From NCBI RefSeq assembly GCF_900100345.1, contig NZ_FMTT01000010.1, positions 62,001-126,000 on the forward strand: a DNA stretch of 64,000 nt, given 5' to 3'. The position numbers and the translations under genes are program-made. Positions 35,794-64,000 of this stretch are shown here, in pieces (the first letter of the stretch is position 1; each line of letters opens with the position of its first letter). The notes below the pieces were generated by a model. It made no database searches, had not been told where the DNA came from, and was given only the letters and a program-made list of their open reading frames with translations. The stretch is from Paenibacillus tianmuensis. GTDB taxonomy: Bacteria; Bacillota; Bacilli; Paenibacillales; NBRC-103111.

Positions 35794-35820
35794 CTATAAC
35801 GTTCATGGAGGTTGACGAGA

Positions 35821-37179: not shown

Positions 37180-37240
37180 GAATGCCGATCGTAACAGCGT
37201 TATTATCTGCTCATGATTGAAGAGAGGGGTCGGATCGATA

Positions 37241-46000: not shown

Positions 46001-49000
46001 AATTTTTTTGAGGCCGGAGGCCACTCTTTAAAGGCGACGAAGGTAATCAACCGGATCGAAGAAGTGACGGGGATCCGATTATCGCTGATCGAAATGCTCA
46101 AAGAACCAACGGTTGAAGCTTTAAGCAGGAAGATCAAAAATAAAGAAAAACCGTATGTCCAGATTCCCAAAGCGGAATCGAAGCCCTGCTATCCAATGTC
46201 GTCTTCACAAAAGCGAATATTTGTCATTTCCAGCATGGACAACACGGGCGTCGTTTACAATATGTACAAAGGCATGGAAATCAACGGAAAATTGGATGTC
46301 TCTAAAGTGAAGCATGCTTACCTTCAACTGGTGAGCCGTCACGAAATTTTGAGAACCGGCTTTTTCATGAAGGATGGGGAAGCTGTGCAGCAGGTACTCG
46401 ACGAAGTTAGCGCCGAGATCGAATACGATGAGGCGGAGGAGGTCGGCGAAGCCGACAAGATCAGGCTGCTGTCCGAATTTGTGCGGCCATTTGACTTGGG
46501 CAAGGCTCCGCTTCTTCGCATCAAGGTCATTCGTGTCGGGCAAGGGAACGACCTGTTGTTCTTTGATATGCATCATATTATTTCGGACGGAATGTCCATC
46601 AATATTCTCGCTGAGGATTTTACAAGGTTGTACTCAGGCGAGACATTAGAGGAGCCCGGTATCCAGTATAAAGATTATAGCGAATGGATGCGGACAAGGG
46701 ATCTTTCCGGTCAACGGGCCTATTGGATTCATGAATTTAAGGACAGCGTTCCTGTCCTTCATCTGCCGCTTGATTATAAGCGGCCGCCAATCCAAAGCTT
46801 TCTCGGAAACAGCGTGGAATGCTTTGTTGATCAAGAGCTGAAGACGAAGGTGATGGCTTTATGCAGAAAAACAGGAACCACGGAATATATGGTGCTTCTC
46901 TCCATACTGATGGTGCTGCTTAGCAAGTACAGCAGGCAGGAGGATATTGTCGTCGGGAGCCCGATTTCGGGAAGAACACACCGGGACACGGAGAACATAC
47001 TGGGCATGTTTGTAAACACCATGGCTTTGAGGGGAAAGCCCGAAGCGGACAAAACCTTTGGCTCCTTCTTGAATGAGATGAAGGATACATGCCTCCATGC
47101 GCAGGAAAACCAGGAGTATCCGTTCGACGAACTTGTAGAAGAGGTCGAAGTGAATCGGGATCTGTCACGAAATCCGTTGTTTGACGTCCTGTTCAGTTTG
47201 GAGAATCCTGCCGATGATGTGGAGCTTGATCTGGACGGATTTCAATTCAAGGAAATTTTTATCGAGCATGCCATCGCCAAATTTGATTTGACCGTAACCG
47301 TATCGAACAGGGATACAGGTTACGGAGTCACTTTCGAGTACGGCCGCGAGCTGTTTGCTGAAAGCAGCATACGTCAAATGATGGCTCACTTTTGCAAAAT
47401 CTTGAAGGAGGTCACGTTCGACCCCGAACAGCGGATCGCGGAGCTTGAGGTGCTCGAAGAGGAGGAACAAGCGAGAATTTTGGGAGCGTTCAACAACACG
47501 GATGCGGCCATGCCGCAAGAGAAGTCCGTCGCGCAGCTGTTCAACGAGCAGGCAGCCAAAGTGCCGGATCATATCGCCGTCAGCTGCGAGGATCAAGCGC
47601 TCACGTATCGGGAGCTGAGCCGCAAGGCCAACCGGCTTGCCGCGCAATTGAGGAAGCTGGGAGTCCGCCGCGACGACTATGTGGCGGTCATGGCCGAGCG
47701 GCGAATCGAGACAATCGTCGCTATCTGCGGCATTGTTCAGGCGGGCGGCGCTTACGTGCCGATCGATCCGGCCAACCCCGGGGAAAGAATCGAGTACATC
47801 CTGAAGGACTGCAAGCCGAAGGCGATGCTGGCCTATGATGCGGACGATCGGGCCGGTGTGCCGGTCATCAATCTGTCCGAAGCGGACCCGTGGGAAGCTG
47901 CGGAGGAGGAGCCGGTCAGTCGGCCGAACGACTTGATCTATGTCATCTATACGTCGGGAACGACAGGAAGGCCGAAGGGCGTCATGGTCGAGCACAAGAA
48001 CGTGATCCGGCTGGTGAAGAACGCTGGCTATGCGAAGCTGGATGAACGGACAGTGATCCTGCAGACGGGAGCCCTCAGCTTCGATGCCTCGACCTTCGAA
48101 ATCTGGGGAGCGCTGCTTAACGGGGGGCACGTGCATCTGGCCGACCGCGATGTCATCCTCGATGCCCGGAGACTGAAAGGAGTCATACAAGAGAAGTCGA
48201 TCACGACCATGTTTACCACGACGGCTTTGTTTAATCAACTGATGAGTACGGACGAGACGGTATTTGACGGTCTGGGCACCCTGTTGTTCGGCGGGGAGAA
48301 GACGTCCGAGATGCATGTCCGAAAGCTGGTGGAGCGGAACCGGCGGATCGATTTTGCGAACATTTACGGACCGACGGAAACGACGACGTTTGCCGTCTGG
48401 TATCCGATTGAGGAGCGTACGCTTCGAGCGAAGACGCCGATCGGAAAGCCCATCTCCAATACGAGGGCCTATGTAGTGAACGAAGGGAAGCTTTGCGGAA
48501 TCGGGATGATCGGGGAGCTGTGCATCGCGGGAGACGGCGTAGCGAGAGGCTATCTGAATCTTCCGGAGCAGACGGCGGAGAAATTCGTGGCCAACCCGTT
48601 CGGGGAAGGGCGGATGTATCGCACCGGGGACTTGGTCCGATGGCTGCCGGACGGCAATCTGGAGTATGTGGGGCGGATGGACGAGCAGATCAAGCTCCGA
48701 GGCTTCCGCATCGAATTGGGAGAGATCGAAAGCGCGCTCCGGAAGCTGAGTGGCGTGCGGGATGCGGTTGTGACCGTACATGAAGAGCGGGAAGAAAAGC
48801 ATCTTTGCGCTTATCTGGTGGCGGAAGAAGCGGATGTGTCGATCAGCCGCATCCGGGAAGAGCTTCGCAAGGAGCTGCCGGAGTACATGATCCCTGTATA
48901 TATGATGACCATCGGGAGTATTCCGGTGAACCGAAACGGCAAAATCGATAAAAAAGCGCTGTCCCCAATCGAGATCAAGAGCGAGCGCGCCTATGCGGCG

Positions 49001-50620
49001 CCAAGGAATGAGACGGAGCGGGCGATCGTGCAGGTGTTTGAGGACATCCTCGGAATCGATCAAGTGGGGATGAGGGACAGTTTTTATGAACTTGGCGGCG
49101 ATTCCATTAAGGCGATCCGGATTATATCGCGGCTTAGAGAATTGAATTTTGAGCTGACGGTCAAAGAAATGCTGCAGCTGCAAGTGATCGAGGACATGAT
49201 ATCCCGTGTCCGAAAGGACGCAGACAGGGTGGAGTACGAGCAGGGGGAGGTTACGGGAGAAGTTCCTTTGACACCGATACAGCATTTGTTTTTTCAATGG
49301 AACTTAAAGAAGCCCGATCATTTCAATCAGGCTGTGACCCTGCAATCAAGAGACCGGTTGGAGGAAGAGGCACTAAGGGAAGCGTTGCGAGCCTTGGCCG
49401 CGCATCATGACCTTTTGAGGGCTGTGTTTACCGATGGCAGGCAGGAAATACGGAAGGTGGACGGGAGTTGCTTGTTTCATCTGGAGAGCTTTGATTACAG
49501 CGGCATCATGGATGAAAGTCTGCTGGAGTCAGCGATGTTTGAGCAAAGCACCGCGATTCAGCGAAGTATGGACTTATCGAAGGGGCCGCTGCTGAGAACC
49601 GCTCTGTATCGGGCGCCGGCATACGATTATTTGATGATTTGTATACATCACCTCGTTGTCGATGGCATTTCGTGGAGAATCCTGCTTGAAGACCTTGTAG
49701 CGGGATATTTCCAAGCAAGGAGGGGGACGCCGATTCTATTTCCCGGGAAAACCGCATCGTATCTCGACTGGTCGAAAGCTTTATTGGCCTACAGCGAATC
49801 CGGGGAGCTGAAACGTGAAATCCAGTATTGGGAAGGCATTCATGCCCAAATGAACACCGGGATCATCGAAGCCGATGCGGACGGTACGGAGCAGGGGTAT
49901 GAGAGCCTAACTTTTGAATTCGGCGAAGAACTGACAAGTCAACTGCTGTATGAAGCTGGTAAAGCCTTCAATACGGCAATAAACGATATCCTGCTTTCGG
50001 CGCTGGGCATGGCGGTGAATTCGTGGAAGCGTCAGAATAAAGTCGCAATCTACTTGGAAGGGCATGGCCGGGAAGAAATTAATCAAGCGATCGATATTCA
50101 TCGAACGGTGGGCTGGTTTACCAGCATTTACCCGGTTATTCTGGAAGCCTCGGAGAAGATGGAAGACGTTATTGTTCAAACGAAGGAGATGCTGAGGCAT
50201 ATTCCTAACCGCGGGATGGGCTATGGGGTGATTCGTTACGGCGGAAAATACGAAATTCCCGAAACGGTACCGGATATCGGATTTAATTATTTGGGCCAGT
50301 GGAATATGGAATCCAATGAGGGGACGGGAATAACCGCCTCGACACTGTCCAGCGGAGTGAATATAGCAGAAGAGAATCAACGAACGAACAGCATATCGCT
50401 GAACGGAAGCATCTATAACGGAAAGCTCGCGATGACCATCGAATATGACAAGAGCAAATTCAGCCACTCATCCATTCAAACGCTCAACATGGATTATCAA
50501 AAGGCTTTGACGAATGTCGTCCAATTCTGCATTTCGCGGAAAGAAACGGTAAAAACAGCCTCTGATTATCATGAGGAATTAACAGATGACGTCTTGAAGG
50601 ATATTATCAATAGTTTCTAA
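43028..50620 (+). CDS. NRPS, C(dead)-A-PCP-C-A-PCP-E
   Basis: A 2530-residue NRPS. C1 (1-440) has His140-Arg141-xxx-Asp145-Glu146 instead of HHxxxDG, so the catalytic His is lost. A1 (about 455-950) reads D, F, W, C, I, G, S, I, L at the selectivity positions; the DFW/IG frame recalls threonine-type pockets, but I cannot assign it. PCP1 has Ser1000. C2 (1055-1480) is intact (His1182-His1183, Asp1187). A2 (about 1490-1965) reads D, A, F, F, L, G, I, T, F, close to an isoleucine pocket of bacitracin synthetase. PCP2 (Ser2026, GGDSIKAI) precedes an epimerisation domain (2045-2500; His2207-His2208, [20 protein letters not shown]). So residue two should become D-configured. The C-terminal tail probably docks to the next protein. 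Confidence 0.92.
47431..49044 (+). repeat. Near-identical A-domain repeat, copy 1
   Basis: From CGGATCGCGGAG through the whole A2 domain to GTGTTTGAGGA at its end, this segment matches 51977-53603 almost base for base. Differences are scattered substitutions and one 12-bp difference in the linker before [10 protein letters not shown]. Similarity falls off sharply at both ends (C domain upstream, PCP downstream). This points to recent duplication or gene conversion limited to the A domain. Confidence 0.93.
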
Positions 50621-50652: not shown

Positions 50653-53600
50653 ATGGACCATAAGATTGATTCGATTTATCCGCTAAGCCCGATGCAGGAA
50701 GGGATGCTGTTCCACAAATTATTTAACGAACAATCAACCGAATATGTTGTCCGGCATGTCCTCCAATGGACCGGAGAGTTTGAAGTCAAGCGGGTCAGAG
50801 AAGCTTTGGACCTGCTCGCGGAAAAATATGAAGTGCTGCGCACGGCCATCGTCATGCCCAAAAAGGGGGGGCGGCCGTGGCAGGTCGTATTGAAAGCCCG
50901 GCCGATCGAGTTGAACGTCGTGGATGTATCGGGAGAGCCCTCGGCGGCGGAGCGGGTCGAAGCCATCAAACAGGAGGATCTCCGGCGCGGATTTGATCTG
51001 GAGAAGGACACCCTGCTCAGAATGACGATCATCAAGCTGTCCGCTGAGGAAAGCATTGCGTTGTGGAGCCTGCATCATATCATTTTGGATGGATGGTGCA
51101 GCTCTACGGTGTTAATTCAGTTTATGCAGTACTATGCGGCTTTGGGCAAAGGGAGAACGTATGGCGAGCTGAAGCATGCCATCAGCGCTTCGGCAGCCGA
51201 TACGGCTTCCTATAAAGAATATATACATTGGCTGGAAAAGCAGGATAAGCAGGCGGCAATGACCTATTGGGAGGCGCTGCTCGGAGATTATTCGGGCTCT
51301 ACAGCCCTGCTGCCTATCGGGCCAAGTGCGGAAACCAAAGAGGAAATGGAACGAATAACGCTTCGTACGAGCCGCGAATTTACAGATCAGGTGAAGCGGG
51401 CCGCCAAGCGCAAGAGCATCACGATCAATACAATTCTGGAAAGCGCCTTAGGCATCCTTCTTCAAAAATACAACAGGAGCAGCGACGCGGTGTTCGGAAA
51501 AGTCGTGTCCGGAAGGAACGCGGATTTGTCGGGGATTGACCGGATTGTCGGCTTGTTTATCAATACGATTCCCGTGCGGGTAAAAACGGATGCGGAAACG
51601 ACCTGCGAGCAATTGCTGAAGGCCATGCATCATCAAGCGCTGGATAGCTCTTGTTACGATTATTGCCCGTTATCCGATATTCAGCAGCTAAACGGCCGTG
51701 GCGGCGGATTAATCGATGTGCTCTTTGTTTATGAAAACTATTTTATCGATAGAGAGGCATTCACTCAAGGCTTGGAGGATTTGGACGGCCGGCTGAAGAT
51801 CGAGCTGGGCGAAAGCAGAGAACAAACGAATTATCCGGTTAATGTGAGCGTCTCGATGGAAGAAACCTTGAATTTGGATATTTTGTACGATCCCAGGCGC
51901 TATGGCAAGGAAGAAATGCAAATGCTGCTCGAAAGGTACCGCATCGTTTTGAAGCAAATGGTTGAATTTCCCGAACGGCGGATCGCGGAGGTTGAGGTGC
52001 TCGAAGAGGAGGAACAAGCGAGAATCCTGGGAACGTTCAATGACACGGATGCGGCCATGCCGCAAGAAAAGTCTGTCGCGCAGCTGTTCAACGAGCAGGC
52101 AGCCAAAGTGCCGGATCATATCGCCGTTAGCTGCGAGGATCAAGCGCTCACGTATCGGGAGCTAAGCCGCAAGGCCAACCGGCTTGCCGCGCAATTGAGG
52201 AAGCTGGGAGTCCGCCGCGACGACTATGTGGCGGTCATGGCCGAGCGGCGGATCGAGACGATCGTCGCCATCTGCGGCATTGTTCAGGCGGGCGGTGCCT
52301 ACGTGCCGATCGATCCGGCCAACCCCAGGGAAAGAATCGAGTACATCCTGAAGGACTGCAAGCCGAAGGCGATGCTGACCTATGATGCGGACGATCAGGC
52401 CGGTGTGCCGGTCATCAACCTGTCCGAGGCGGACCGGCGGGAAGCCGAGGATGAGGAGTCGGAGCTGGAGCCGGTCAGTCGGCCGAACGACTTGATCTAT
52501 GTCATCTATACGTCGGGAACGACAGGAAGGCCGAAGGGCGTCATGGTCGAGCACAAAAACGTGATCCGCCTGGTGAAGAACGCTGGCTATGCGAAGCTGG
52601 ATGAACGGACGGTGATTCTGCAGACGGGAGCTCTCAGCTTCGATGCCTCGACCTTTGAAATCTGGGGAGCGCTGCTTCATGGGGGACACGTGCATCTGGC
52701 TGACCGCGATGTTATCCTCGATGCCCGGAGACTGAAAGGAGTCATACAAGAGAAGACGATCACGACCATGTTTACCACGACGGTTTTGTTTAACCAGCTG
52801 ATGAGCATGAATGAGACGGTATTTGACGGTCTGGGCACCCTGTTATTCGGCGGGGAGAAGACGTCCGAGACGCATGTCCGAAAGCTGGTGGAGCGGAACC
52901 TGCGGATCGATTTTGCGAATATCTATGGGCCGACAGAGACGACGACGTTTGCCGTCTGGTATCCGATTGAGGACCGCACGCTCCGAGCGAAGACGCCGAT
53001 CGGAAAGCCCATCTCCAATACGAGGGCCTATGTAGTGAACGAAGGGAAGCTTTGTGGAATCGGGATGATCGGGGAGCTGTGTATCGCAGGAGACGGAGTA
53101 GCGAGAGGATATCTGAATCTTCCGGAGCAGACGGCGGAGAAATTCGTAGCCGACCCGTTCGGGGAAGGGCGGATGTATCGCACCGGGGACTTGGTCCGAT
53201 GGCTGCCGGACGGCAATCTGCAGTATGTGGGGCGGATGGACGAGCAGATCAAGCTCCGAGGCTTCCGCATCGAATTGGGAGAGATCGAAAGCGCGCTCCG
53301 GAAGCTGAGTGGCGTGCGGGATGCGGTTGTGACCGTACATGAAGAGCGGGAAGAAAAGCATCTTTGCGCCTATCTGGTGGCGGAAGAAGCGGATGTGTCG
53401 ATCAGTCGCATCCGGGAAGAGCTTCGCAAGGAGCTGCCGGAGTACATGATCCCTGTATATATGATGACCATCGGGAGTATTCCGGTGAACCGAAACGGCA
53501 AAATCGATAAAAAAGCGCTGCCCCCAATCGAGATCAAGAGCGAGCGCGCCTATGCGGCGCCAAGGAATGAGACGGAGCGGGCGATCGTGCAGGTGTTTGA

Positions 53601-55140
53601 GGAAGTATTGGGCATCGGGAGGGTCGGTCTGCAGGACAACTTCTTTGAACTGGGAGGAGACTCCCTCAAGGCTATCCGTATTGTCGCCAAGCTAAGAGGG
53701 CTGGATTATGGCTTGACGATGCGGGAACTGGTCCAGCAGCGCACGATCGCAGAGGTTATTGCCAAGATCGACGGCAAGGAATCGGCGACCCCGCTGAATG
53801 AAGCGCTCAGGGAAGTATCCGCCGCTTCTTCTGCCGATCATACGACAGCCGTGAATGCTTCCATGACGCGCGGCAGCGAGCTGGAAGTAAGAACGGCGGC
53901 CGTATTGGAGGATACCCGGTTGGATCCGGATCAGTTCAAGAAGACAAGATGGGTTGAAGAACTGGCGAACTATGACTGTAATACAAGAGAAGCCGCGATA
54001 TCGGATTGTTTTGAACCATTTGCCTATCAAAAGTTCTTCTTGCTCCAGCAGCCGGAGACGATATGCACCAAGACGGAAATTGTTGGCTCGATGACGAAAA
54101 AGCACATGGTGCAAATCGTCAGAGAGATCGTTCATGAGCAAAATGGTTGCCGATATTTCTATCAAAGCGAAGAGGATATGATCCAGGAGTGCGAGTTTAC
54201 AGACCGCTGGCATGTGCCGTACATCGACCTGAGCGATGAACCGGATTCCGACGCAAAGCTTGCTCCGCTGGAATCGATCTCCAACCTGGCTGCGCTGTTT
54301 AAGCACGGAAGTCTGTTGGTGAAGATCATGATCGTAAAAACAGCACACAACCGGCATGTCGTTTATTTTTACGCGCAGCATGCCGTATGGGATTTTGTAT
54401 CTACGGAAGTACTAGGAAATCTGGTTAGAAACAAATGTTTGGGAATGGACGGCGGCCTGGACAAAAACGGGTATACCCGGTATTCGAAAGCGAGACAGCA
54501 AAGAGAAGCGGATTTACGGCAGGATGCGCCCCGCTTCTTTGGAAGCATCGCAGATCAGATCAATCATTACCAAGCCCTGACGAATGGCCGGACGTTCCGC
54601 TACCTCATCGATATGACAAGAAAAGTGGACCCGGAAACGGCGGAGAACATCCTTCGGAATCCGATTCAATGGGTCCTTCGATTGTTCGCTTTGATTAATA
54701 TCAGGCCGTTGGACGACGGTACGAAACATTCAAGCTTTCCTTTCGCATTAATCCAATCTGGCCGAACGGATGCCGGTCACATGACCTTAGGCTTGTATTT
54801 GGATTCCGTCGTACAGACATTTGATGCCGCCCGGGGGACGATCGAAGCCTCCGAAGTTGGCGATTGCGCCTTTCTGTTATTTGGAGCGGAGTATTTGAGC
54901 GACATTATATCCATCAACTTTGTGTCATCATTCGATCCCTCCTACACGTTCGAGGAGTGCGGAGATTTGAGGATTGGCATGCAAGCTATGAATGAAAACG
55001 CGGTGTCCAAAGGGCATATGACGATCAGGCTCTTTAACGACAGCTTGCAGCTGCTTATCCCGAGCTTTCATCACGATCTGGATCGGATCGCCGAAATGAC
55101 AGAGGAGCACTTGAGACAAGGCCAAGCAAGCCGAATCTAA
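50653..55140 (+). CDS. NRPS, C-A-PCP with divergent C-like terminal domain
   Basis: A 1495-residue protein. The C domain (1-430, His141-His142, Asp146-Gly147; start motif [12 protein letters not shown]) is of the type that accepts a D-configured donor, fitting the E domain encoded just before. The A domain (about 445-930, Asp664 in FDASTFEIW) is nearly identical to A2 of the preceding protein and has the same pocket residues, so Ile/Val-like. The PCP has Ser1004. After it come about 400 residues (1095-1495) that I can only describe as condensation-like: Gln1242-His1243-xxx-Asp1247-xx-Ser1250 stands where HHxxxDG would be. There is no thioesterase or reductase. This domain may release the chain or pass it to an acceptor. 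AAAGGAG lies 11 bases before ATG 50653, and the gap to the preceding NRPS is 32 bp. Confidence 0.9.
51977..53603 (+). repeat. Near-identical A-domain repeat, copy 2
   Basis: Partner of the repeat at 47431-49044. This copy has four extra codons in the stretch before [10 protein letters not shown] (EDEESELEP here against a shorter EEEP there). Both copies use the same selectivity residues, so both A domains should activate the same amino acid. Confidence 0.93.
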
Positions 55141-55162: not shown

Positions 55163-55414
55163 ATGGAGGTAAAAGAAACGATCAGAAAATTTTTAAGCCG
55201 ATATGTGGGCGACAAGCCATTTGACGATGCCGACAATATTTTTGAGAAGGGGTATGTGAACTCGTTATTTTTCATGCAGCTTGTCTTATTTATTGAAAAG
55301 CAGTTTCAAATCACCATTGAAAATGAAGATTTGGCGATGGGAAATTTTCAAGATGTGAACTCGATTGCGGCTTTCGTAAACTCCAGGCTATTAAACGCGC
55401 ATGGCCTGAAATAA
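55163..55414 (+). CDS. Discrete acyl carrier protein for extender-unit synthesis
   Basis: An 83-residue carrier with the attachment site Ser34 in GYVNSLFFMQLVLFIEKQF. This NSLF(A/F)MQLV form is typical of the free ACPs that carry methoxymalonyl, hydroxymalonyl or aminomalonyl units (FkbJ/ZmaD-like), not of assembly-line carriers. It should hold an amino acid (inferred serine) while the two dehydrogenases at 60115 and 62530 oxidise it to an aminomalonyl unit. GGAAGGAG precedes ATG 55163. It sits directly between the last NRPS and the second AT. Confidence 0.88.
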   Translation: MEVKETIRKFLSRYVGDKPFDDADNIFEKGYVNSLFFMQLVLFIEKQFQITIENEDLAMGNFQDVNSIAAFVNSRLLNAHGLK

Positions 55415-55436
55415 TCAGGGGAAGGAGACGAATCAT

Positions 55437-56684
55437 GTGCCTAAAATTGCCGTTGTTTTTCCGGGCTCGGATAGTCATTTTATAGGGATGTACAAGGCTT
55501 TGTATGACGAATACAGCATTGTCAGAGATACGATCCATGAGGCTGAACAGGCTACGGGCATACCTCTGGGCGAATTGTGCTTTAAGGGACCGCTTTCCGT
55601 ATTGTCAAGACCTGAAAATGCCCATGCGGCCATTGTTGCATTCGGCGTAGCCGCCTTTCGCGTGTTTGTGAGCGAAACGGGAATCACACCGCAGTTCTGT
55701 GCGGGACACAGCCTGGGAGAATACACAGCGCTGGTATGCGCAGGCGCAATGAAGCTGTCCGATACATTGAAGCTGGTTCAACTGCGCACGGAAATCAGCA
55801 AAGAAATCCAGACGGCTGTCGACGGCGGTATGACGATCGTTGATGGAATTGATGCCGAAGCTGTGGAGAAGATCTGCAAGCAGCAGCAAAGGAACGGGAG
55901 ACATGTCTATGTCTCCTGCTACAATTCCTCAACTCAGGTTGCGATTTCCGGCTTGCAAGAGGATGTAGAGGAGACGGAAAAAATCATCGGCAAAGAACAT
56001 GGTTCCGTCACTCCTTTGTTCGACAGCGCTCCTTTTCATTGCCCCGTCATGGAGCGAGGAGCGGAGAAGTTGCAGAAGGCCATTGCACGCTTGCCATTGG
56101 GCGAGTTCCGGTATCCGGTAATGTCCAACTATACCGGAAAACCGTACGTTCGCATACAGGACGTAGAAGAAAATTTGGTCCGGCATTTATCGAATCCGGT
56201 TCGCTGGGAGGAGATTATCCGTTACTTTGAGAGCAAAGGCGTCCGGCTGGTCATTGATTTCAGTGCCAGAAACATATTTGAAGGCATGATTCAGCACAAG
56301 CCGTCTCTCCGGACCATATGCTTTGGAGTAAGGGAGGAGAGAGAAAAACTGTTCCAATTGTTGAACAGCTCCGATGACGACGGCAGCAGGTCCACTTTTA
56401 TTTCGAAAAGCCTACTTGCGGCGCTATCCACTCCCAATCAACATGTGGAACGATACGTCAACGGCGCCGATGTCGCGGACCATTATCATAAGCTTTCCGA
56501 AATCAGCATGGAGCTGGAACAGGGGAGGATCGCTTTGTCGAACGAAGTCAAGCGGAGTATTCTTCTTCTGTTGAAACGCATCTTTGACGCGAAGAAGCTT
56601 GGCCGGGATGAGCAAACCCAATGGTTTCAGCAAATTTTGGATGAAACCTCCTCTACATACCTCAATTTGATTGAAATTGAATAA
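55437..56684 (+). CDS. Atypical discrete acyltransferase (trans-AT 2)
   Basis: A 415-residue acyltransferase with GHSLGEYTA, the carboxylate-binding Arg in VQLRTEI and SAPFHCP. The N-terminal GQGSQ of normal ATs is changed to GSDSH, which sets it apart from AT 1 of the same cluster. It starts at GTG 55437, 9 bases after GGGAAGGAG, and is encoded right after the free ACP. By analogy with ZmaF of zwittermicin, it probably moves the ACP-bound special extender unit onto a KS-module carrier. That substrate is inference. The last 110 or so residues are a helical extension of unknown role. Confidence 0.85.
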   Translation: MPKIAVVFPGSDSHFIGMYKALYDEYSIVRDTIHEAEQATGIPLGELCFKGPLSVLSRPENAHAAIVAFGVAAFRVFVSETGITPQFCAGHSLGEYTALVCAGAMKLSDTLKLVQLRTEISKEIQTAVDGGMTIVDGIDAEAVEKICKQQQRNGRHVYVSCYNSSTQVAISGLQEDVEETEKIIGKEHGSVTPLFDSAPFHCPVMERGAEKLQKAIARLPLGEFRYPVMSNYTGKPYVRIQDVEENLVRHLSNPVRWEEIIRYFESKGVRLVIDFSARNIFEGMIQHKPSLRTICFGVREEREKLFQLLNSSDDDGSRSTFISKSLLAALSTPNQHVERYVNGADVADHYHKLSEISMELEQGRIALSNEVKRSILLLLKRIFDAKKLGRDEQTQWFQQILDETSSTYLNLIEIE

Positions 56685-56694
56685 ATATAACCGA

Positions 56695-56723
56695 TTGACA
56701 AAAATATACTGCTCTGATACCTT
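56695..56723 (+). promoter_or_regulatory. Promoter of marR and the transporter/extender-unit genes
   Basis: A perfect TTGACA (56695-56700) is followed after 17 bases by TACCTT (56718-56723), a weak -10 box strengthened by an upstream TGN (56715-56717). The predicted start of transcription is near 56731, exactly where a palindrome begins. Confidence 0.55.
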
Positions 56724-56730
56724 AAATATA

Positions 56731-56742
56731 ACAGCATGCTGT
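56731..56742. promoter_or_regulatory. Perfect palindrome, likely MarR operator
   Basis: ACAGCATGCTGT is a perfect 12-bp palindrome. It overlaps the predicted transcription start and lies 20 bp before the MarR start codon, the expected place for autoregulation by a dimeric MarR protein. It is short for a MarR site, but its position supports the call. Confidence 0.55.
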
Positions 56743-56762
56743 CTAAATTGAGGTGAGCAACA

Positions 56763-57326
56763 TTGAATAATCAGGAAGAGCTATTTTTGATTCAGCAAAT
56801 TTACGGAACACTTTTCGCGCTCGCCAACAAAATCCAGTCCAAAGGCGATACTTATTTTGAGGACATCACATCCAGACAGTTCATGATTATGATGGCCATT
56901 ATTCACCTGCCGGAAGAAGAGGCCACCATCATCAATATCGCCAAAAAGTTAGGGACCACCAAGCAGAGCGCCAGACATCTGCTCTCCTCGATCGAGAGCA
57001 AAGGGTATGTGGTTGCCATTCCAAGCCCCGTGGACCGGCGCGCCGTGAACGTCAAAATTACGGAATCCGGGAAAAAGGTTTTGCTGAAATGCGGGGGAAA
57101 ATCGATCCACTTCCTGGCCGATCTTTCGGGAAACTTCACCAAGGAAGAGCTGGAGCAGATATGGACTCTGCTGAAAAAGCTGTATCAGTTTGACGGCGAA
57201 AAGCAGGATGGGTTTGAGGAAAGTATTTCGATCCAAATGGGAGATGAGCAGGATGAGATGACGAAGAAGGCATTGGAAGAATTCTCAAGACGACGAAATG
57301 CCCAAGTGCCCGAGTCCAATCCTTAA
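56763..57326 (+). CDS. MarR-family transcriptional regulator
   Basis: A 187-residue winged-helix regulator. The DNA-binding part reads ATIINIAKKLGTTKQSARHLL, then IESKGYVVAIPSPVDRRAVNVKITESG, the standard MarR recognition helix and wing. It probably represses the ABC exporter behind it until the product or another ligand binds. I start it at TTG 56763, after GAGGTGA at 56750-56756. The C-terminal 35 residues are an acidic extension not needed for the fold. It reads in the same direction as the exporter, 67 bp before the ATPase gene. Confidence 0.92.
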   Translation: MNNQEELFLIQQIYGTLFALANKIQSKGDTYFEDITSRQFMIMMAIIHLPEEEATIINIAKKLGTTKQSARHLLSSIESKGYVVAIPSPVDRRAVNVKITESGKKVLLKCGGKSIHFLADLSGNFTKEELEQIWTLLKKLYQFDGEKQDGFEESISIQMGDEQDEMTKKALEEFSRRRNAQVPESNP

Positions 57327-57393
57327 GCGCGGACCATAGCGGGACTTCACAGGGTGAGGCAGTACTTTGGAGAGGAATCTGGGAGGGAAGAGC

Positions 57394-58332
57394 ATGGAAC
57401 ATGCTGTAGTTGTCAAAAATTTGCATAAAAGCTACCGGGATAAAAAAGCGGTGAATGGGATCGACTTTGTCGTCAATAAAGGGGAAATCCTGGGGTTTCT
57501 AGGTCCGAACGGGGCGGGCAAAAGCACCATCATGAATATTTTGTCGACCATTTTATCGGCGGATGAGGGCGAAATCACGATCCTGGGCGTTCCTTTGAAG
57601 AAAAATGCGAAGTCCATCAAGCTTCGCATTGGAATTGTGCCTCAGGATCTCGCGATCTACGAAGAGATTTCCGCCGAGAAAAATGTGCGATTTTTTGCAA
57701 GCCTGTATCATCTGAAAGGCCAAATGCTGGAAGACAAGGTGAAGGCTGCGCTGGAGCTGGTAGGCCTGTACGATAAGAAAGACCATAAGCCCAAAACCTT
57801 TTCGGGCGGCATGAAGAGAAGATTGAATATTGCTTGCGGCATTGCTCATCAGCCTCAGCTTATTATTTTGGATGAACCGACCGTCGGCATCGATCCCCAA
57901 TCCAGAAATCATATTCTGGAGTCCATCAAAATTTTGAAGCAGCATGGCGCAACGGTGATTTACTCGACTCACTATATGGAAGAGGTAGAAGCCATATCCG
58001 ACCGGATTCTGATCATTAACGAAGGGAAGATTATTGCGGAAGGCACCAAAGAAGAATTGAACCGGAAGGTGAGCGATGAAATCACCTATACGTTCTCTGT
58101 GAAGAACACGGAGCGGTTAACCGTTGAGGCTTTCCACGAAATAGACGGTGTAACGAAGGTACGCCTGTCTGCGGATACGATTGAGGTCACCTCCGGAAAG
58201 TCCGAAGACAATCTCAACGGAATCATCGGCGTCATCACCTCAAGCGGCTGCAAAATCCATAATATGAGCCGGACGGAAGCCTCGTTGGAAACGACATTCC
58301 TTGAGCTGACCGGAAGAAATTTAAGAGATTAG
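57394..58332 (+). CDS. ABC transporter ATP-binding protein
   Basis: A 312-residue ATPase of the drug-exporter type (CcmA/DrrA-like). It has Walker A GPNGAGKST, a Q-loop in IVPQDLAIYEE, signature FSGGMKRR, Walker B LIILDEPTVGIDPQ and a switch His in STHYMEE. The C-terminal 80 residues form the domain usual for this subfamily. With the two membrane proteins behind it, it should export the product and give self-resistance. ATG 57394 follows GGGAGGG. Confidence 0.94.
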   Translation: MEHAVVVKNLHKSYRDKKAVNGIDFVVNKGEILGFLGPNGAGKSTIMNILSTILSADEGEITILGVPLKKNAKSIKLRIGIVPQDLAIYEEISAEKNVRFFASLYHLKGQMLEDKVKAALELVGLYDKKDHKPKTFSGGMKRRLNIACGIAHQPQLIILDEPTVGIDPQSRNHILESIKILKQHGATVIYSTHYMEEVEAISDRILIINEGKIIAEGTKEELNRKVSDEITYTFSVKNTERLTVEAFHEIDGVTKVRLSADTIEVTSGKSEDNLNGIIGVITSSGCKIHNMSRTEASLETTFLELTGRNLRD

Positions 58333-58345
58333 GAGCATGCTACCC

Positions 58346-59089
58346 ATGAATTTCTTAAAAATCGTATGGTTCGATTTCATGAATATATGCAGGACGCCGA
58401 TGCTGGTCATCGTCAATACGATTGGTCAGTTAATCATATGGGCCGGCTTTGGTATGGTGACAAGCAGCCATTTTGGAGGAGGGATTGTCAATTCCTATGA
58501 TTACTATGGGATTGCGACCATGATTTTGTCTTCCATCATGATCTCCATGACCGTAACGAATACCTTCATGGAGGAGAAGGTGAAGAGGGGGAACCTGCGT
58601 ATTGCCTACGCTCCGGTCTCCAAAACCGAGATTTATTTATCCAAGCTGCTCTCCACTTACATCTTCGGGGTTATCGCCTTCACCTTGTTATGCTTGCTTG
58701 AACAAATGGTGTTTCAGAGCAACTTTGGCGGCGCTAATATCGGTTACATTATGATATTGATCCATATGCTCACTTTGTTCGGATGCTGCATAGGCACTTT
58801 GGTGGTCGTCATGTTTAAAAGCGAGGAACGGGCGAATGCGGTCATGCCGATCATCTCCATCCTTTTTATCTTCTTCGGAGGCGTGTTCAGCCCCGTTGGC
58901 CATTTTGGAGAAGTGATGCAGGCGATTGCGCAAATCTCGCCTGCCAAATGGGTCACCCAAGCGGCCTTCCAGATCATCTATGACAACAACTTCAGCTTAT
59001 TCCTCCCCGTTATCGCTTTCCTGCTGCTCTTCTCCATCGTCTTCACCGTCATCAGTCAATTTATTTTTAAACCGGAGGAGTATCTGTAA
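58346..59089 (+). CDS. ABC-2 type exporter permease 1
   Basis: A 247-residue membrane protein with about six hydrophobic segments and the ABC-2 permease pattern (IFFGGVFSPVGHFGEVMQ, then ISPAKWVTQAAF). I prefer ATG 58346, ten bases after AGGAG, over ATG 58337, which is too near. The stop codon overlaps the next start by one base (TAATG), so both permeases are translated together. Confidence 0.9.
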   Translation: MNFLKIVWFDFMNICRTPMLVIVNTIGQLIIWAGFGMVTSSHFGGGIVNSYDYYGIATMILSSIMISMTVTNTFMEEKVKRGNLRIAYAPVSKTEIYLSKLLSTYIFGVIAFTLLCLLEQMVFQSNFGGANIGYIMILIHMLTLFGCCIGTLVVVMFKSEERANAVMPIISILFIFFGGVFSPVGHFGEVMQAIAQISPAKWVTQAAFQIIYDNNFSLFLPVIAFLLLFSIVFTVISQFIFKPEEYL

Positions 59090-60084
59090 TGAACTTCATG
59101 CCGTTATTCAAAAATAAGCTGGACCGGATTAAATACAAAAAGGAAATCTTCGTCGTCGCGCTCATCATTATCCCCATTACCATTCTGGCTACGATATTAT
59201 TGTCCAACCGGCAGGAATTGAGGTCCAACATTGCGCTGGTTACCCAAGATGCGCAGAGCGTACAGGAGTTCCCGGAAAATAATAAATTTACGATTATTCC
59301 CGTCAAAGAAAAACCCACGCTCTCGAATCTGATTTTGGGATATTATGATGCTATTGTGGAAAAAAACAACGAAGGCACCTATCTGGTCATGACAGTGATC
59401 AAAAGTAAAAAGGACACCGATATCATCTCCAATTACTTTAACAAGAAGGAAAGCCCTGTCGATTACGAAAGTCAAGACCTTGAGCGTGGCGTTGGGACGA
59501 AGGTCTTGGGCTTTATTATCATGATTATTTTGATGCAGGGTGTTGCTATAACGATGCTTTATACCGAGGACAGAACCCTCAGAACCTTCGGAAGGATCAT
59601 GATGGCGCCGGTAAGCGAACAGCTGTACATTGCTTCACAGGGGATTTTTACCTTCATATGCTTGTATTTCCCCACTTATTTGGCCCTGGTCATAACGAAG
59701 GAAGTTTTCGGAGTTGAACTCGGGTTCGGGCTCGGGCTGCTGGCCCTGTTGATCGGTATGGTGACTGCTCTTGGAACGGCGTTTGGTTTGTTTATGTCAT
59801 CGATTCTGAAGCAGAACGTTTCCTTGACCGCAAGCTTGTTTGCCATTATCACCTCCCTGCTGGGTACGTGTCTGGTTCCCTTCAAGGTGAACAACAGCGT
59901 CATTGACGGGATGATCAGCCTTATTCCGCAAAAGGCTTTTATGGAGATTCTGGAAGGAGCGGAAAAGGGGAAGGAACTTCTGCAATTCAAGGGCCAGCTT
60001 ATCGATTTGGCGGTTTGGATTCTTGTGCTCTGGTTTTTCGGAAGCTATGTCATTCAGCGGAAAGTAAGCTCGGGAAATTATTGA
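59089..60084 (+). CDS. ABC-2 type exporter permease 2
   Basis: A 331-residue membrane protein. One N-terminal helix (about 20-38) is followed by an extracytoplasmic domain of about 120 residues, then five or six helices, the standard ABC-2 membrane component layout. It starts at ATG 59089, overlapping the stop of permease 1, with GGAGGAG upstream. The two different permeases should form a heterodimer with the ATPase. Confidence 0.9.
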   Translation: MNFMPLFKNKLDRIKYKKEIFVVALIIIPITILATILLSNRQELRSNIALVTQDAQSVQEFPENNKFTIIPVKEKPTLSNLILGYYDAIVEKNNEGTYLVMTVIKSKKDTDIISNYFNKKESPVDYESQDLERGVGTKVLGFIIMIILMQGVAITMLYTEDRTLRTFGRIMMAPVSEQLYIASQGIFTFICLYFPTYLALVITKEVFGVELGFGLGLLALLIGMVTALGTAFGLFMSSILKQNVSLTASLFAIITSLLGTCLVPFKVNNSVIDGMISLIPQKAFMEILEGAEKGKELLQFKGQLIDLAVWILVLWFFGSYVIQRKVSSGNY

Positions 60085-60114
60085 TTCCACTTGCAACGGA
60101 AAGGAGACCGGCTC

Positions 60115-61287
60115 TTGTCCATTCAAAATATCGAACTAACAGAACAGCAAAAGAAGAAGCAGGAGGAGTTCAAGCATTTTGTGGATAGCGAAATTGTACC
60201 GATTGCCGGCAGCATCGATCAGGAAGAAAACATGCCCAGAGCCGTTATCGACAAGTTGATTGCCAGAGGGTATTGGGGGGCGGAGCTGCCTCCCGAATAT
60301 GGCGGCGCCGGTATGGATCAAATTACGTACGGTTTGCTCCATGAAGAAATTGGCCGGGGCTGCGCGAATCTTCGCAATGTGATGGGCGTGCAGGGGATGG
60401 TCACTTCGTCCATTCTGCGCTGGGGTACACAGGAGCAGAAGAAAAAATGGCTGCCCCGGTTGAGCTCGGGCGAATGGACGGCTGCCTTCGCCTTGACCGA
60501 ACCGGAAGTCGGCAGCGATGCCAAAAGTATGCATACCCTCGCCCGATCGGATGGCTCGGAATATGTGATTACCGGCCGGAAAAAATGGATCACCTTCGGG
60601 CAAAATGCGGACCTTTTCCTGGTGTTCGCGCAAATGGACGGCAAAGTCAGCGCCTTTATCGTGGAAAGGGATACGCCCGGATTTTCCAGTCTGCCCACTG
60701 TCGGCCTGCTCGGCTTTCGAGGCTCTATGCTGGCCGAATTGATATTGGAAGAATGCAGGGTTCCGGCTAATCATGTCGTGGGCAAGACGGGCTTCGGCTT
60801 GACGCTTGTAGCGAATCATGGCTTGACTCACGGCCGTTACAGCACGGCCTGGGGAGCGGTCGGATTGGCTCAAGCCTGCTTGGAGGCATGCCTGACTTAT
60901 GCCAGCGAAAGAAAACAGTTTAACGTTTATCTGAAAGAGCATCAATTGGTTCAGCAAATGATTGCGGATATGGTAGTGAACATCATGGCTGCCAGGCTGC
61001 TCTGCCATCGGGTGGGACAATTAAGAGACAAGGGGGATTTGCAGTCCATACCGGAAACCTCGGTGGCTAAATATTTTGCCGCAACCATGGCCTCTAAAGC
61101 CGCCAAAGATGCCGTTCAGCTTCATGGAGCCAACGGCTGCGGTCCGGAATACCCGGTGCAAAGATACATGCGGGATGCCAAAATCATGGAAATTGTAGAG
61201 GGCAGCACTCAAATTCAGCAGCTCTTGATTGCGAACGATGCCTTCAGCAGCTTGAATATGCGAAGCTTGACGCATGAAACGGTTTAG
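60115..61287 (+). CDS. Acyl-CoA dehydrogenase-like flavoprotein for extender-unit synthesis
   Basis: A 390-residue FAD enzyme of the acyl-CoA dehydrogenase family: FALTEPEVGSDA and WITFGQNADLFLV (flavin site), GRYSTAWGAVG, LHGANGCGPEYPVQRYMRDA and IVEGSTQIQ. Together with a 3-hydroxyacyl-CoA dehydrogenase and a free ACP, such enzymes oxidise an ACP-bound 3-hydroxyacyl group (glyceryl or seryl) to a malonyl-type extender. I start it at TTG 60115, 8 bases after AAGGAG (60101-60106). The upstream part of the frame lacks a ribosome site. Confidence 0.9.
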   Translation: MSIQNIELTEQQKKKQEEFKHFVDSEIVPIAGSIDQEENMPRAVIDKLIARGYWGAELPPEYGGAGMDQITYGLLHEEIGRGCANLRNVMGVQGMVTSSILRWGTQEQKKKWLPRLSSGEWTAAFALTEPEVGSDAKSMHTLARSDGSEYVITGRKKWITFGQNADLFLVFAQMDGKVSAFIVERDTPGFSSLPTVGLLGFRGSMLAELILEECRVPANHVVGKTGFGLTLVANHGLTHGRYSTAWGAVGLAQACLEACLTYASERKQFNVYLKEHQLVQQMIADMVVNIMAARLLCHRVGQLRDKGDLQSIPETSVAKYFAATMASKAAKDAVQLHGANGCGPEYPVQRYMRDAKIMEIVEGSTQIQQLLIANDAFSSLNMRSLTHETV

Positions 61288-61297
61288 GAGGGATTCG

Positions 61298-62503
61298 ATG
61301 ATCGGGCAAACACATTATATCGAACTCAATCCGGCTATCGCTATCGGTTATTCGGAGGAGCTTGAAAAACGGCTGTTTTTTATTACAGCGGACATTACGC
61401 AATTTCAACTGGTTACGGATGATCAACAAATCAAGGGAATCGAGCTCCATCTGCTACCGTCAGCCGACCCTCTGGACATTGAGCGAAAAGTTCAATCTGT
61501 AATCGAGAATGAAATTATACTTCAGAAGCTTATCCCTCCCCGGGTCATCTGGCAGTCCAGCCAAAAACACCATAGCTATCAGGACGACCTGTACGATCAA
61601 CTACTTGAACGGGGCATGGTTCATGAGATGGGCGAAGGCCAGGTATGCTTTGGCGAGCAGCTAATCCGCTTGATGGAAAGCCTGGATGCCAGGATTAAAG
61701 AGATGACGGTCGCTTCTTTTGGCGCCAAGGAATACCGCTACCCCACATTGATTTCTACCCAATCTCTGGAGAAATGCGGCTACTTCTCTTCCTTTCCGCA
61801 CATGCTGATGTTTGTGACACGGCTGCATAACGATATTGATACGTACCGTAATTTCCTGGATGAATATCAAGCCAATCAAAAGGTGGGTCCGTATCTTTTT
61901 TCCTATAGCAACAATGTAGATTACTGCTTGCCGCCGACGATGTGCTACCATACGTATCATCAACTGCAGGACACCGAATTTTCCGAGGCGCAGAATCAGG
62001 TTATTACCTCCATAGGCAAATCATTCCGATATGAATCCAACTATCATCGTACGCTGGAACGACTCTGGGATTTTACGATTCGGGAAATTGTTTTTTTGGG
62101 TTCCAAGGATTTCGTGCTGGACAGCCGTCAACAGTATATGGAGGCTTCATTTGCCCTTATGGAAAGCTTGGGCTTGGAGGGGCACAGCGAGGTGGCCAGC
62201 GACCCGTTCTTCTGCAATGCCGATACGGCTGCGAAACTACTGAATCAACGAATGCAGGAACTCAAGTACGAGCTCCGCTTGAATATTACCGGGGAACGCA
62301 CGATTGCGGCGGCTTCATTTAATTTTCACGATCACTTTTTCGGCGAGCGGTTTAACATCAAGCGGGGGGAGACGGAATGGATGAAGAGCGGCTGCGTCGG
62401 CTTTGGAATGGAAAGACTGGCCTATGCGTTTATCAGCCAGCATGGTTTGGAGGAAAGAAACTGGTCGAGGTTTCTTGGCGGTTATCGAATCGGCCATCGA
62501 TAA
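61298..62503 (+). CDS. Seryl-tRNA-synthetase-like amino acid:carrier protein ligase
   Basis: A 401-residue class II aminoacyl-tRNA-synthetase-like protein. Motif 2 is FRYESNYHRTLERLWDFTIRE and motif 3 GCVGFGMERLAYAF. Cys residues in PPTMCYHTYH and GCVGFG may bind zinc, as in atypical SerRS proteins. The N-terminal tRNA-binding arm of true SerRS is missing. This is the layout of the enzymes that charge carrier proteins instead of tRNA. It should activate an amino acid with ATP and place it on the free ACP (55163). Characterised relatives use Gly or Ala; serine is inferred here from the flanking dehydrogenases. ATG 61298 follows AGGAGGG; an in-frame ATG at 61274 lies inside the previous gene. 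Confidence 0.88.
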   Translation: MIGQTHYIELNPAIAIGYSEELEKRLFFITADITQFQLVTDDQQIKGIELHLLPSADPLDIERKVQSVIENEIILQKLIPPRVIWQSSQKHHSYQDDLYDQLLERGMVHEMGEGQVCFGEQLIRLMESLDARIKEMTVASFGAKEYRYPTLISTQSLEKCGYFSSFPHMLMFVTRLHNDIDTYRNFLDEYQANQKVGPYLFSYSNNVDYCLPPTMCYHTYHQLQDTEFSEAQNQVITSIGKSFRYESNYHRTLERLWDFTIREIVFLGSKDFVLDSRQQYMEASFALMESLGLEGHSEVASDPFFCNADTAAKLLNQRMQELKYELRLNITGERTIAAASFNFHDHFFGERFNIKRGETEWMKSGCVGFGMERLAYAFISQHGLEERNWSRFLGGYRIGHR

Positions 62504-62529
62504 ATCATCCGGAAAAGGAGTATGAGACG

Positions 62530-63390
62530 ATGCGCATCCTAGGCGTGATTGGAGCGGGGGTCATTGGTACAGGAGTGGCCCAAAACTTTGCGGAGTATGG
62601 ATTTCCGGTAGTGCTGGTGGACATTTGCGAGGAGAGGCTGGCTCAATCAAGGGCCGAGATGGCCAAGCATCTCCGGTTTCAGGCTTTATATAAGAAGAGC
62701 GATCAGATTCGGAAGCCGGATGAAGTCATCGGCCGGATTACGTTTACGACGGATTATCAGCTGCTGCAGGACGTCGATTGGGTTGTAGAGAATGTTACCG
62801 AAAATTTTGAGATCAAAAAGGAAGTATATAAAAAGCTGGATGCGATCTGCAAGCCGGACTGCATGTTTTTGGTCAATACCTCTTGTATTTCCATCACCAA
62901 AATCGCCTCGCTGACCAAGCGCCCCTCCCAAATCATGGGGGCTCACTTCATGAACCCGGTACCGATGAAAACTTTTGTCGAATGCATCCGGGGGCACCAC
63001 ACTTCGGATGAAACGATTCGCGCAGCGCGAGAGCTGTTAACTTCGATTGGAAAAGACGGTGTGGTCGTGAGCGATTACCCCGGATTTGTCTCGAATCGCA
63101 TCTCGCACTTATTCATGAACGAGGCGGCTTTTGTCGTTCAAGATCAGGTGGCGAATCCGCAAGAGGTTGATGAAATTTTTAAGCATTGCTTCAGCCACAA
63201 AATGGGTCCGCTTGAAACCGCGGACCTAATCGGCATTGACACGGTAGTTCATTCGCTGGATGTGTTGTATGAGAGCTACCAGGACCCGAAATTTCGCTGC
63301 TGCCCGCTGCTTCGCAAAATGGTGGACGCCAATTTGCTTGGGCGTAAAACAGGTCAAGGCTTTTACAATTATCAGTATGAGCTTGTTTAG
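62530..63390 (+). CDS. 3-hydroxyacyl-CoA dehydrogenase-like enzyme for extender-unit synthesis
   Basis: A 286-residue NAD-dependent dehydrogenase with the nucleotide site GVIGAGVIGTGVAQ, NTSCISIT, the catalytic His in GAHFMNPVP, and the C-terminal GFVSNRI...MGPLETADLIGID and RKTGQGFYNY. In the model for hydroxymalonyl- and aminomalonyl-ACP it oxidises the beta-hydroxyl of the carrier-bound unit to the aldehyde. The acyl-CoA dehydrogenase homologue then completes oxidation to the acid. ATG 62530 follows AAAGGAG (62514-62520). The gene lies 26 bp after the ligase and is clearly in the same operon. Confidence 0.92.
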   Translation: MRILGVIGAGVIGTGVAQNFAEYGFPVVLVDICEERLAQSRAEMAKHLRFQALYKKSDQIRKPDEVIGRITFTTDYQLLQDVDWVVENVTENFEIKKEVYKKLDAICKPDCMFLVNTSCISITKIASLTKRPSQIMGAHFMNPVPMKTFVECIRGHHTSDETIRAARELLTSIGKDGVVVSDYPGFVSNRISHLFMNEAAFVVQDQVANPQEVDEIFKHCFSHKMGPLETADLIGIDTVVHSLDVLYESYQDPKFRCCPLLRKMVDANLLGRKTGQGFYNYQYELV

Positions 63391-63406: not shown

Positions 63407-64000
63407 ATGGAGCGAATATCCGATGAACGCTACACTCCGGTTTTGATTGTCGGTACGGGCATCTCGGGGCTTGCGGTTGCTTACCATTTGTCCAAAAGAA
63501 AGATCGGGTATACGATCGTCACCAAAAACAATGCGCCGAAGCAAAGCAATTCCTTTCTGTCGGCTGCCAACACGCGTGTCCCCCCAGAGGATGAAATTCA
63601 TACGATCATTAATCTGACCATTGCTAAATGTGGCGCCGATCGCCCGGTAATTGAAGCGTTGTATAGGAATTCCAGTCACGTCTTGGAGTTCTTCGAGGAA
63701 TTGGGATTGCCCTTTGAGAAAACAGCATTGGGGTTCATGCCCGAAAGCCCGATTAAATCACATGGGGGGAAAAAATTAATCAACCGCTTATTGGAAAAGA
63801 TTGAACCCCCGTTGTGCAACAACATCTTGATTCATTTGGAAAAGTCTCAGGATGGGGTTAGCGCGTTATTTTATGATACGGTATCCGATCGGTTTGCCAG
63901 AATCAACGCGAATTATTTAGTTCTGGCTACCGGCGGATATGCGGCACAATTCAATTACAACGATAATTCGCCTGGTTCTACGGGCGAAGCGCTTATTCTG
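63407..64000 (+). CDS. FAD-dependent oxidoreductase, N-terminal part (runs off the window)
   Basis: The first 198 residues of a flavoprotein of the FAD-binding-2 family (fumarate reductase / L-aspartate oxidase type). It has the Rossmann motif VGTGISGLAVAYHL at the N-terminus and LVLATGGYAAQFNYNDNSPG, then STGEALIL near the break. It starts at ATG 63407, eight bases after GGGAGGT, 16 bp behind the dehydrogenase, so it belongs to the same operon. L-aspartate oxidase (NadB) is the closest well-known relative I recognise, but a tailoring role is more likely in this context. The substrate-binding half is outside the window. Confidence 0.82.
   Translation, partial: MERISDERYTPVLIVGTGISGLAVAYHLSKRKIGYTIVTKNNAPKQSNSFLSAANTRVPPEDEIHTIINLTIAKCGADRPVIEALYRNSSHVLEFFEELGLPFEKTALGFMPESPIKSHGGKKLINRLLEKIEPPLCNNILIHLEKSQDGVSALFYDTVSDRFARINANYLVLATGGYAAQFNYNDNSPGSTGEALIL

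Follow-up and report, generated by a model that had tools for sequence, protein, structure and literature searches.

A 64,000-nucleotide stretch of the Paenibacillus tianmuensis genome (hereafter the window, G000:C41:62001-126000; genome of 6.03 Mb, 99.64% complete) was analysed, and the genes near its downstream end were found to form what is probably a cassette making aminomalonyl-acyl carrier protein (ACP) from serine for a polyketide synthase (PKS) that has no acyltransferase (AT) domain. The cassette comprised a free-standing ACP, a discrete AT (AT2), an acyl-CoA-dehydrogenase-type flavoenzyme (ACAD), a ligase resembling seryl-tRNA synthetase (SerRS), here called LIG, and a 3-hydroxyacyl-CoA dehydrogenase-type enzyme (HAD). 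We also consider it rather likely that SerRS-like ligases are a third kind of loader giving aminomalonyl-ACP, beside FkbH and the adenylation (A) enzymes of nonribosomal peptide synthetase (NRPS) type, and that the cassette has spread among the Bacillota, Actinomycetota, Acidobacteriota and Chloroflexota, entering PKSs with AT domains as well as those without, and marks a family of unexplored amino-polyketides. The new element is most likely the aminoacyl-tRNA-synthetase-like loader, ACP-linked extender-unit cassettes being known already.

All five genes had been named in an earlier sequence-only reading of this DNA, with the ACP described as of the NSLF type, and all were present on the + strand. 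The same reading had assigned them to one operon; the same-strand run was seen, but a MarR regulator, an ABC transporter ATPase and two permeases, which it did not mention, were located between AT2 and ACAD.

We infer the following for the substrate, the order of oxidations, the product and the receiving module. LIG would activate serine as seryl-AMP and load it onto the thiol of the free ACP, after which HAD would oxidize the C3 hydroxyl of seryl-ACP to an aldehyde and ACAD would convert the aldehyde to a carboxylate, yielding aminomalonyl-ACP. Of the two AT-less ketosynthase (KS) modules, one would then receive aminomalonyl from AT2 and the second malonyl from AT1, the other discrete acyltransferase of the cluster; the polyketide chain would thereby gain an alpha-amino group. 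This assignment is supported because LIG recurs together with HAD, ACP and ACAD, whose families also pair with FkbH, because AT2 keeps the carboxylate-binding Arg without the positive charge that AT1 has in its RXR motif, and because ZmaJ, ZmaH and ZmaI of zwittermicin provide a precedent.

The recurrence of the cassette was followed by a search with LIG alone, which found 15 loci with LIG proteins of 45-71% identity in Brevibacillus, Paenibacillus, a Lachnospiraceae metagenome-assembled genome, Actinokineospora, Acidobacteriia, Chloroflexi and Aminicenantes. HAD shared the contig with LIG in 13 of the 15 (inside the locus in six and in neighbouring stretches of the contig in seven); the genome of L044 carried HAD on another contig and that of L041 had none at E 1e-60. 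ACP shared the contig with LIG in 14 loci, that of L044 being on another contig, a cassette-type ACAD occurred in 13 (absent from L040 and L041), and a PKS AT in 14. The gene order was HAD-ACP-LIG-ACAD in L043 and L045-L048 and ACAD-LIG-HAD-ACP in L037, and in L034-L036, L038 and L039 ACAD-LIG preceded and ACP-HAD followed a PKS gene, as they did, ACAD excepted, in L040. LIG relatives were also encoded by three Streptomyces plasmids (94% coverage, 42-45% identity), in two of which HAD-ACP-ACAD-LIG-AT were five adjacent genes. A chance neighbourhood was rejected as unlikely because the gene set recurred in distant phyla with altered gene order. The proposal of an aminoacyl-tRNA-synthetase-like ligase within an ACP-linked extender-type cassette was thus borne out across phyla.

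As a control, 30 loci of a paralogue of LIG found throughout the bacterial family were searched with 13 queries from the cluster, and only LIG matched at E 1e-10, 29 of these loci spanning only about 4 kb. Longer paralogue loci, L079-L082 (19 kb each) and that of the same genome (L004, 20 kb), contained no HAD or ACAD match either. Of 104 genomes of the GTDB family, a single one, the genome under study, had a close LIG; order-wide and class-wide samples had it in 4 of 392 and 2 of 398 genomes, respectively (this genome counted in each). Some match was present in 96 of the 104, those of the other genomes being at most 42% identical. The cassette was rare in these samples, and it has probably spread horizontally. 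Within the window, the G+C content was 57-62% in ten 2-kb segments before position 20000 and 45-57% in twenty after position 24000 (18 at ≤51.4%).

The kinship with FkbH cassettes was established from six plasmid regions, opened on the strength of a match to the HAD or ACAD of the window. The order HAD-ACP-ACAD-FkbH was found in five of them (L058, L069, L070, L071 and L072), a HAD-IIIC phosphatase being taken as FkbH, and the sixth, Xenorhabdus L062, held HAD only. The HAD and ACAD proteins of these five cassettes were 56-61% and 44-58% identical to those of the window, respectively. In the ACAD tree, 14 LIG-cassette ACADs, the five FkbH-cassette ACADs and that of L057 grouped together (100/100), apart from five other ACADs of the genome under study, and the 14 formed a sub-group (96/96); the ACADs L055, L056 and L059_2449 were in the first ACAD tree and were left out of the second. 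LIG-cassette and FkbH-cassette HADs interleaved in the HAD tree. The sequence-only reading had proposed phylogeny of the ligase and the ACP as a check, and the ACP comparison was favourable: the window-type motif [NSRT]S[LM]F..[QN][LM]V was common to the 11 LIG-cassette and five FkbH-cassette ACPs aligned and was missing from the two ACPs of rhizobial type, from the ACP of the genome's own paralogue and from the ACP beside the genome's FkbH.

Since the HAD, ACP and ACAD families are common to both cassettes, LIG occupies the slot of FkbH, or of ZmaJ in zwittermicin biosynthesis. FkbH loads a glyceryl group (PMC6395733, PMC5318452), and the C3 of this group bears a hydroxyl. By analogy, the amino acid with a hydroxyl matching the glyceryl C3 would be serine. 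Two further loci were observed alongside: Paenibacillus sp. NAIST15-1 (L057:6707-8726) has an extender-family HAD-ACAD pair beside an NRPS, with no LIG match in 15 kb, and the FkbH cassette of Alkalihalophilus (L058:15647-17899) adjoins a second gene resembling amino acid:ACP ligases, accompanied by a separate ACP and by a BtrH-domain protein.

LIG itself matched the Bradyrhizobium-type amino acid:[acyl-carrier-protein] ligases in the PDB (4h2w, E 3.4e-33; 3mey, E 4.8e-33) and the type-2 SerRS 3w3s (E 8.2e-23). It resembles the former group (NF005479; Bll0957, 3mey, 4h2w) in the class II core, the zinc-ligand positions and the free ACP partner, but scored 170.3 bits against NF005479 (amino acid:[carrier protein] ligase) and did not reach the curated cut-off of 357. 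The residues C224, E271 and C374 were invariant across eight aligned sequences, in columns that we take to be the zinc ligands of the related enzymes. The catalytic core also aligned with the type-2 (methanogen) SerRS 3w3s and 2cim; however, the scores against two type-2 SerRS families, 154.6 and 116.8 bits, were well under the cut-offs of 611 and 489.55, respectively. An ordinary SerRS was rejected on these scores and on the presence of two ordinary SerRS genes in the genome. The family-wide paralogue was likewise rejected as an identity for LIG, the copy in this genome being 37% identical and in another clade. In the ligase tree of 54 sequences, the other half of the proposed check, a branch (89/89) separated the 19 cassette-clade LIGs from the 30 family-wide paralogue copies (100/99); long branches made the placing of distant rows unsure. 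Aminoacylation of a carrier protein by LIG is suggested by its ACP partner.

AT2 scored 222.4 bits against TIGR00128, under the cut-off of 260.9. Both AT1 and AT2 contained GHSLG and the carboxylate Arg, and the RXR site read SVT, with no positive charge, in AT2 and KYT in AT1. The use of ACP-tethered extender units has been linked to an RXR motif that has lost its positive charge, and in ZmaF and ZmaA-AT the His of GHSXG is replaced by Tyr (GYSxG), as given in the available portion of PMC4207774; the window motifs were compared with the published Zma motif tables only. The AT of FkbH cassette L058 contained GHSIG and MVT at the RXR site, and L071 encoded one further AT with GSSQG. Overall, the AT motifs were supportive for the window but mixed, the RXR rule not being clean among relatives.

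Several observations weighed against the aminomalonyl assignment. The GHSLG of AT2 differs from the GYSxG of ZmaF and ZmaA-AT, and the ATs inside the PKSs of L035, L038 and L040 were also devoid of the positive charge at RXR. The ATs of the Streptomyces LIG cassettes (L059, L060) had GYS[VI]G, the carboxylate Arg and ACR at the RXR site, with Arg in the third place, and those in or near the FkbH loci L069-L072 had GYSLG and again Arg in the third place. Six discrete ATs from Paenibacillus and Brevibacillus (L049-L054) had GYSMG and Ile in place of the carboxylate Arg. The ACADs of the two Streptomyces LIG cassettes belonged to another subfamily, outside the 100/100 group. The third Streptomyces locus, L061, had LIG and no HAD, ACP or ACAD within 31 kb; it was counted as a miss, as was L062. 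Finally, Gly or Ala is what the characterised LIG relatives load, and a comparison of the LIG pocket columns with those of a Gly ligase and of type-2 SerRS gave no distinction between Ser and Gly.

In an unlikely alternative, LIG loads glycine or alanine as the rhizobial-type ligases do, ACAD makes a dehydrogenated aminoacyl-ACP and HAD has a separate job. In its favour, the closest solved relatives are the Bradyrhizobium-type enzymes, and an ACP and an ACAD also stand beside the ligase in the two rhizobial-type operons, from Mycetohabitans and Shinella; however, the window ACAD had no tblastn match to their ACADs (E 1e-3), their ACPs are without the extender motif, and HAD, for which a 3-hydroxyl substrate is expected, shares the contig of LIG in all but two of the 15 loci. 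These operons, L065 and L066, are on plasmids and run ACP, ACAD, amino acid:ACP ligase, DUF1839 and GH2, unlike the window cassette. A Gly in motif 3 (Ala in Bll0957) was tried as a mark of serine and dropped, the same Gly being present in L065 and L066.

It is less probable still that serine is loaded and the unit is not completed, AT2 transferring seryl- or formylglycyl-ACP as an aminoacyl or starter unit. Sets of an ACP, a ligase and an AT also serve amino acid starters, VinK of vicenistatin being a model for the transfer of an aminoacyl unit by an AT, and the discrete ATs of L049-L054 are without the carboxylate Arg. This Arg is retained in AT2, however, and HAD and ACAD belong to FkbH-paired families. 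The discrete AT-like proteins of L049-L054 stand shortly before the cassette ACP. Because Ile replaces Arg, the usual mode of binding a malonate-type carboxylate is unlikely for them, and they are perhaps acyl hydrolases or aminoacyl transferases; a further AT inside the PKS of all six loci, with GHSIG, Arg and F[YF]N, could be the extender AT.

The sequence-only reading had named an FkbH glycerate route beyond the window as the finding that would speak against it. This was found in part. The genome has one FkbH match, on contig C27 (L064:2101-3419; TIGR01686, 245.5 bits), and it does adjoin an ACP, but this is of another, non-cassette type and no HAD, ACAD, AT or LIG homologue was found in C27:1-20000 (of 81973) at E 0.01. 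The next HADs of the genome were at most 43% identical to that of the window. A glycerate route is possible in this genome, but the part of C27 searched has no oxidation genes dedicated to it. That HAD and ACAD act on glyceryl-ACP made by this FkbH to give hydroxymalonyl, with LIG doing something else, is highly improbable, given that FkbH has its own ACP there and that LIG directly follows ACAD, their open frames overlapping by 14 bases or, with the LIG start at 61298 suggested by an upstream AGGAGGG, lying 10 bases apart. Within the window, the genes at 28264-64000 (scanned, except for 50653-55140, which was read as a translation only) included no FkbH, no O-methyltransferase and no free-standing A enzyme, as the sequence-only reading had stated for the first two.

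Among known systems, the aminomalonyl-ACP pathway of zwittermicin A is alike in its free ACP, HAD, ACAD and discrete AT and in building the extender on the ACP. There, ZmaJ loads Ser on ZmaH, and ZmaI and a shared dehydrogenase take part (PMC6395733). The window differs in using a SerRS-like ligase instead of ZmaJ and in the GHSLG of AT2 against the GYSLG of ZmaF. The likeness of HAD and ACAD was judged via their kinship with the FkbH-cassette enzymes, and they were set beside ZmaI and ZmaG, presumably the zwittermicin HAD, by description only. FkbH cassettes share the HAD, ACP and ACAD families and have FkbH instead of LIG. Colibactin contains an aminomalonyl extender derived from serine and loaded by an NRPS-type A domain; by description, it shares the serine-derived unit and differs in the loader. 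The solanimycin cluster has no genes for the aminomalonyl unit, according to PMC10204066, and the available parts of PMC5318452, PMC10204066, PMC11253843 and PMC6594144 contained nothing on such a ligase. In the open-access literature searched, no paper joined aminomalonyl with tRNA synthetase, aminoacyl-tRNA synthetase-like with acyl carrier protein, or SerRS with acyl carrier protein, acyl-CoA dehydrogenase and polyketide synthase, and none of the related papers listed pointed to such a ligase in its title or the opening of its abstract; subscription journals lie mostly outside it, which makes this weak evidence of novelty.

If correct, the aminomalonyl assignment would link an aminoacyl-tRNA-synthetase fold to the supply of polyketide extender units. 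The combination of LIG, an NSLF-type ACP, HAD and ACAD would provide a sequence handle for amino-polyketides missed by mining with FkbH or ZmaJ, and LIG would be a compact means of loading Ser on an ACP when polyketides are engineered to carry amino groups.

The cassette is part of a single hybrid cluster on the + strand, which begins at 28264 with a hydrolase and continues with a starter line, AT1, the AT-less PKS and two NRPSs, followed by the cassette genes (Table 1).

Table 1. Genes of the hybrid cluster and the cassette, in window coordinates.
Feature	Position	Strand	Basis or score
Metallo-beta-lactamase-fold hydrolase, first gene of the cluster	28264..28941	+	domain scan
Starter line: AMP-ligase, peptidyl carrier protein (PCP), cyclisation-type Condensation, A with inserted nitroreductase-type domain, PCP	28993..35793	+	domain scan
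AT1, discrete acyltransferase, malonyl-CoA type by motif (K at RXR site)	35812..37179	+	
PKS, KS-ACP-KS-ACP-Condensation, without AT domain	37217..43021	+	domain scan
NRPS: three Condensation, two AMP-binding, two PP-binding stretches	43028..50620	+	domain scan
NRPS	50653..55140	+	reading of translation only
Free-standing ACP, NSLF phosphopantetheine motif, extender-cassette type	55163..55414	+	Pfam PP-binding, 24.2 bits
AT2, discrete acyltransferase, proposed aminomalonyl-ACP:ACP transferase	55437..56684	+	Acyl_transf_1, 95.2 bits
MarR-family regulator	56763..57326	+	
ABC transporter ATPase, DrrA-like	57367..58332	+	TIGR01188, 289.5 bits (cut-off 312.45)
ABC-2 permease	58337..59089	+	
ABC-2 permease	59089..60084	+	
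ACAD, acyl-CoA-dehydrogenase-type flavoenzyme, extender-unit clade; TTG start uncertain	60091..61287	+	
LIG, SerRS-like class II amino acid:[carrier protein] ligase	61274..62503, probable start 61298	+	
HAD, 3-hydroxyacyl-CoA dehydrogenase-type	62530..63390 (start corrected from 62377)	+	3HCDH_N and 3HCDH
FAD enzyme, distantly L-aspartate oxidase-like	63407..64000, runs on to L003:1874	+	

A thiazole-forming starter had been predicted for this line. The inserted oxidase-type domain of the nitroreductase type and the Condensation domain, with a DxxxxDxxS that we take to be the cyclisation-type motif, are compatible with a thiazole, whereas the choice of Cys by the A domain depends on specificity codes that we assume to apply. 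The A-domain DNA of the two NRPS genes (47423-49044 and 51970-53603) was 95.2% identical over 1634 columns, which suggests a recent duplication or conversion between them.

Downstream of HAD, the FAD enzyme had no match in L034-L048 at E 1e-4, which places it outside the recurring cassette. It is followed by a DJ-1/PfpI protein (L003:1978-2616) that was 82% identical to a copy at the Brevibacillus LIG locus (L034:2596-3231), exceeding the 71% of LIG itself. The genes beyond, judged from their translations only, are presumably a bacillibactin-like siderophore cluster.

The family-wide paralogue of LIG stood in a five-gene run in all five loci seen, that of the genome under study (L004:5841-13050, on G000:C106) and those of four members of its GTDB family (L079-L082). 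The run encoded an FG-GAP-repeat protein, an ACP, a SerRS-like amino acid:ACP ligase, a 330-aa protein with no family match and a DltB-like MBOAT protein; some ligase match at E 1e-20 was present in 96 of the 104 family genomes, the operon itself being seen in the five loci. By its gene content, the run looks like a D-alanylation-type (dlt) system in which an aminoacyl-tRNA-synthetase-like ligase replaces DltA.

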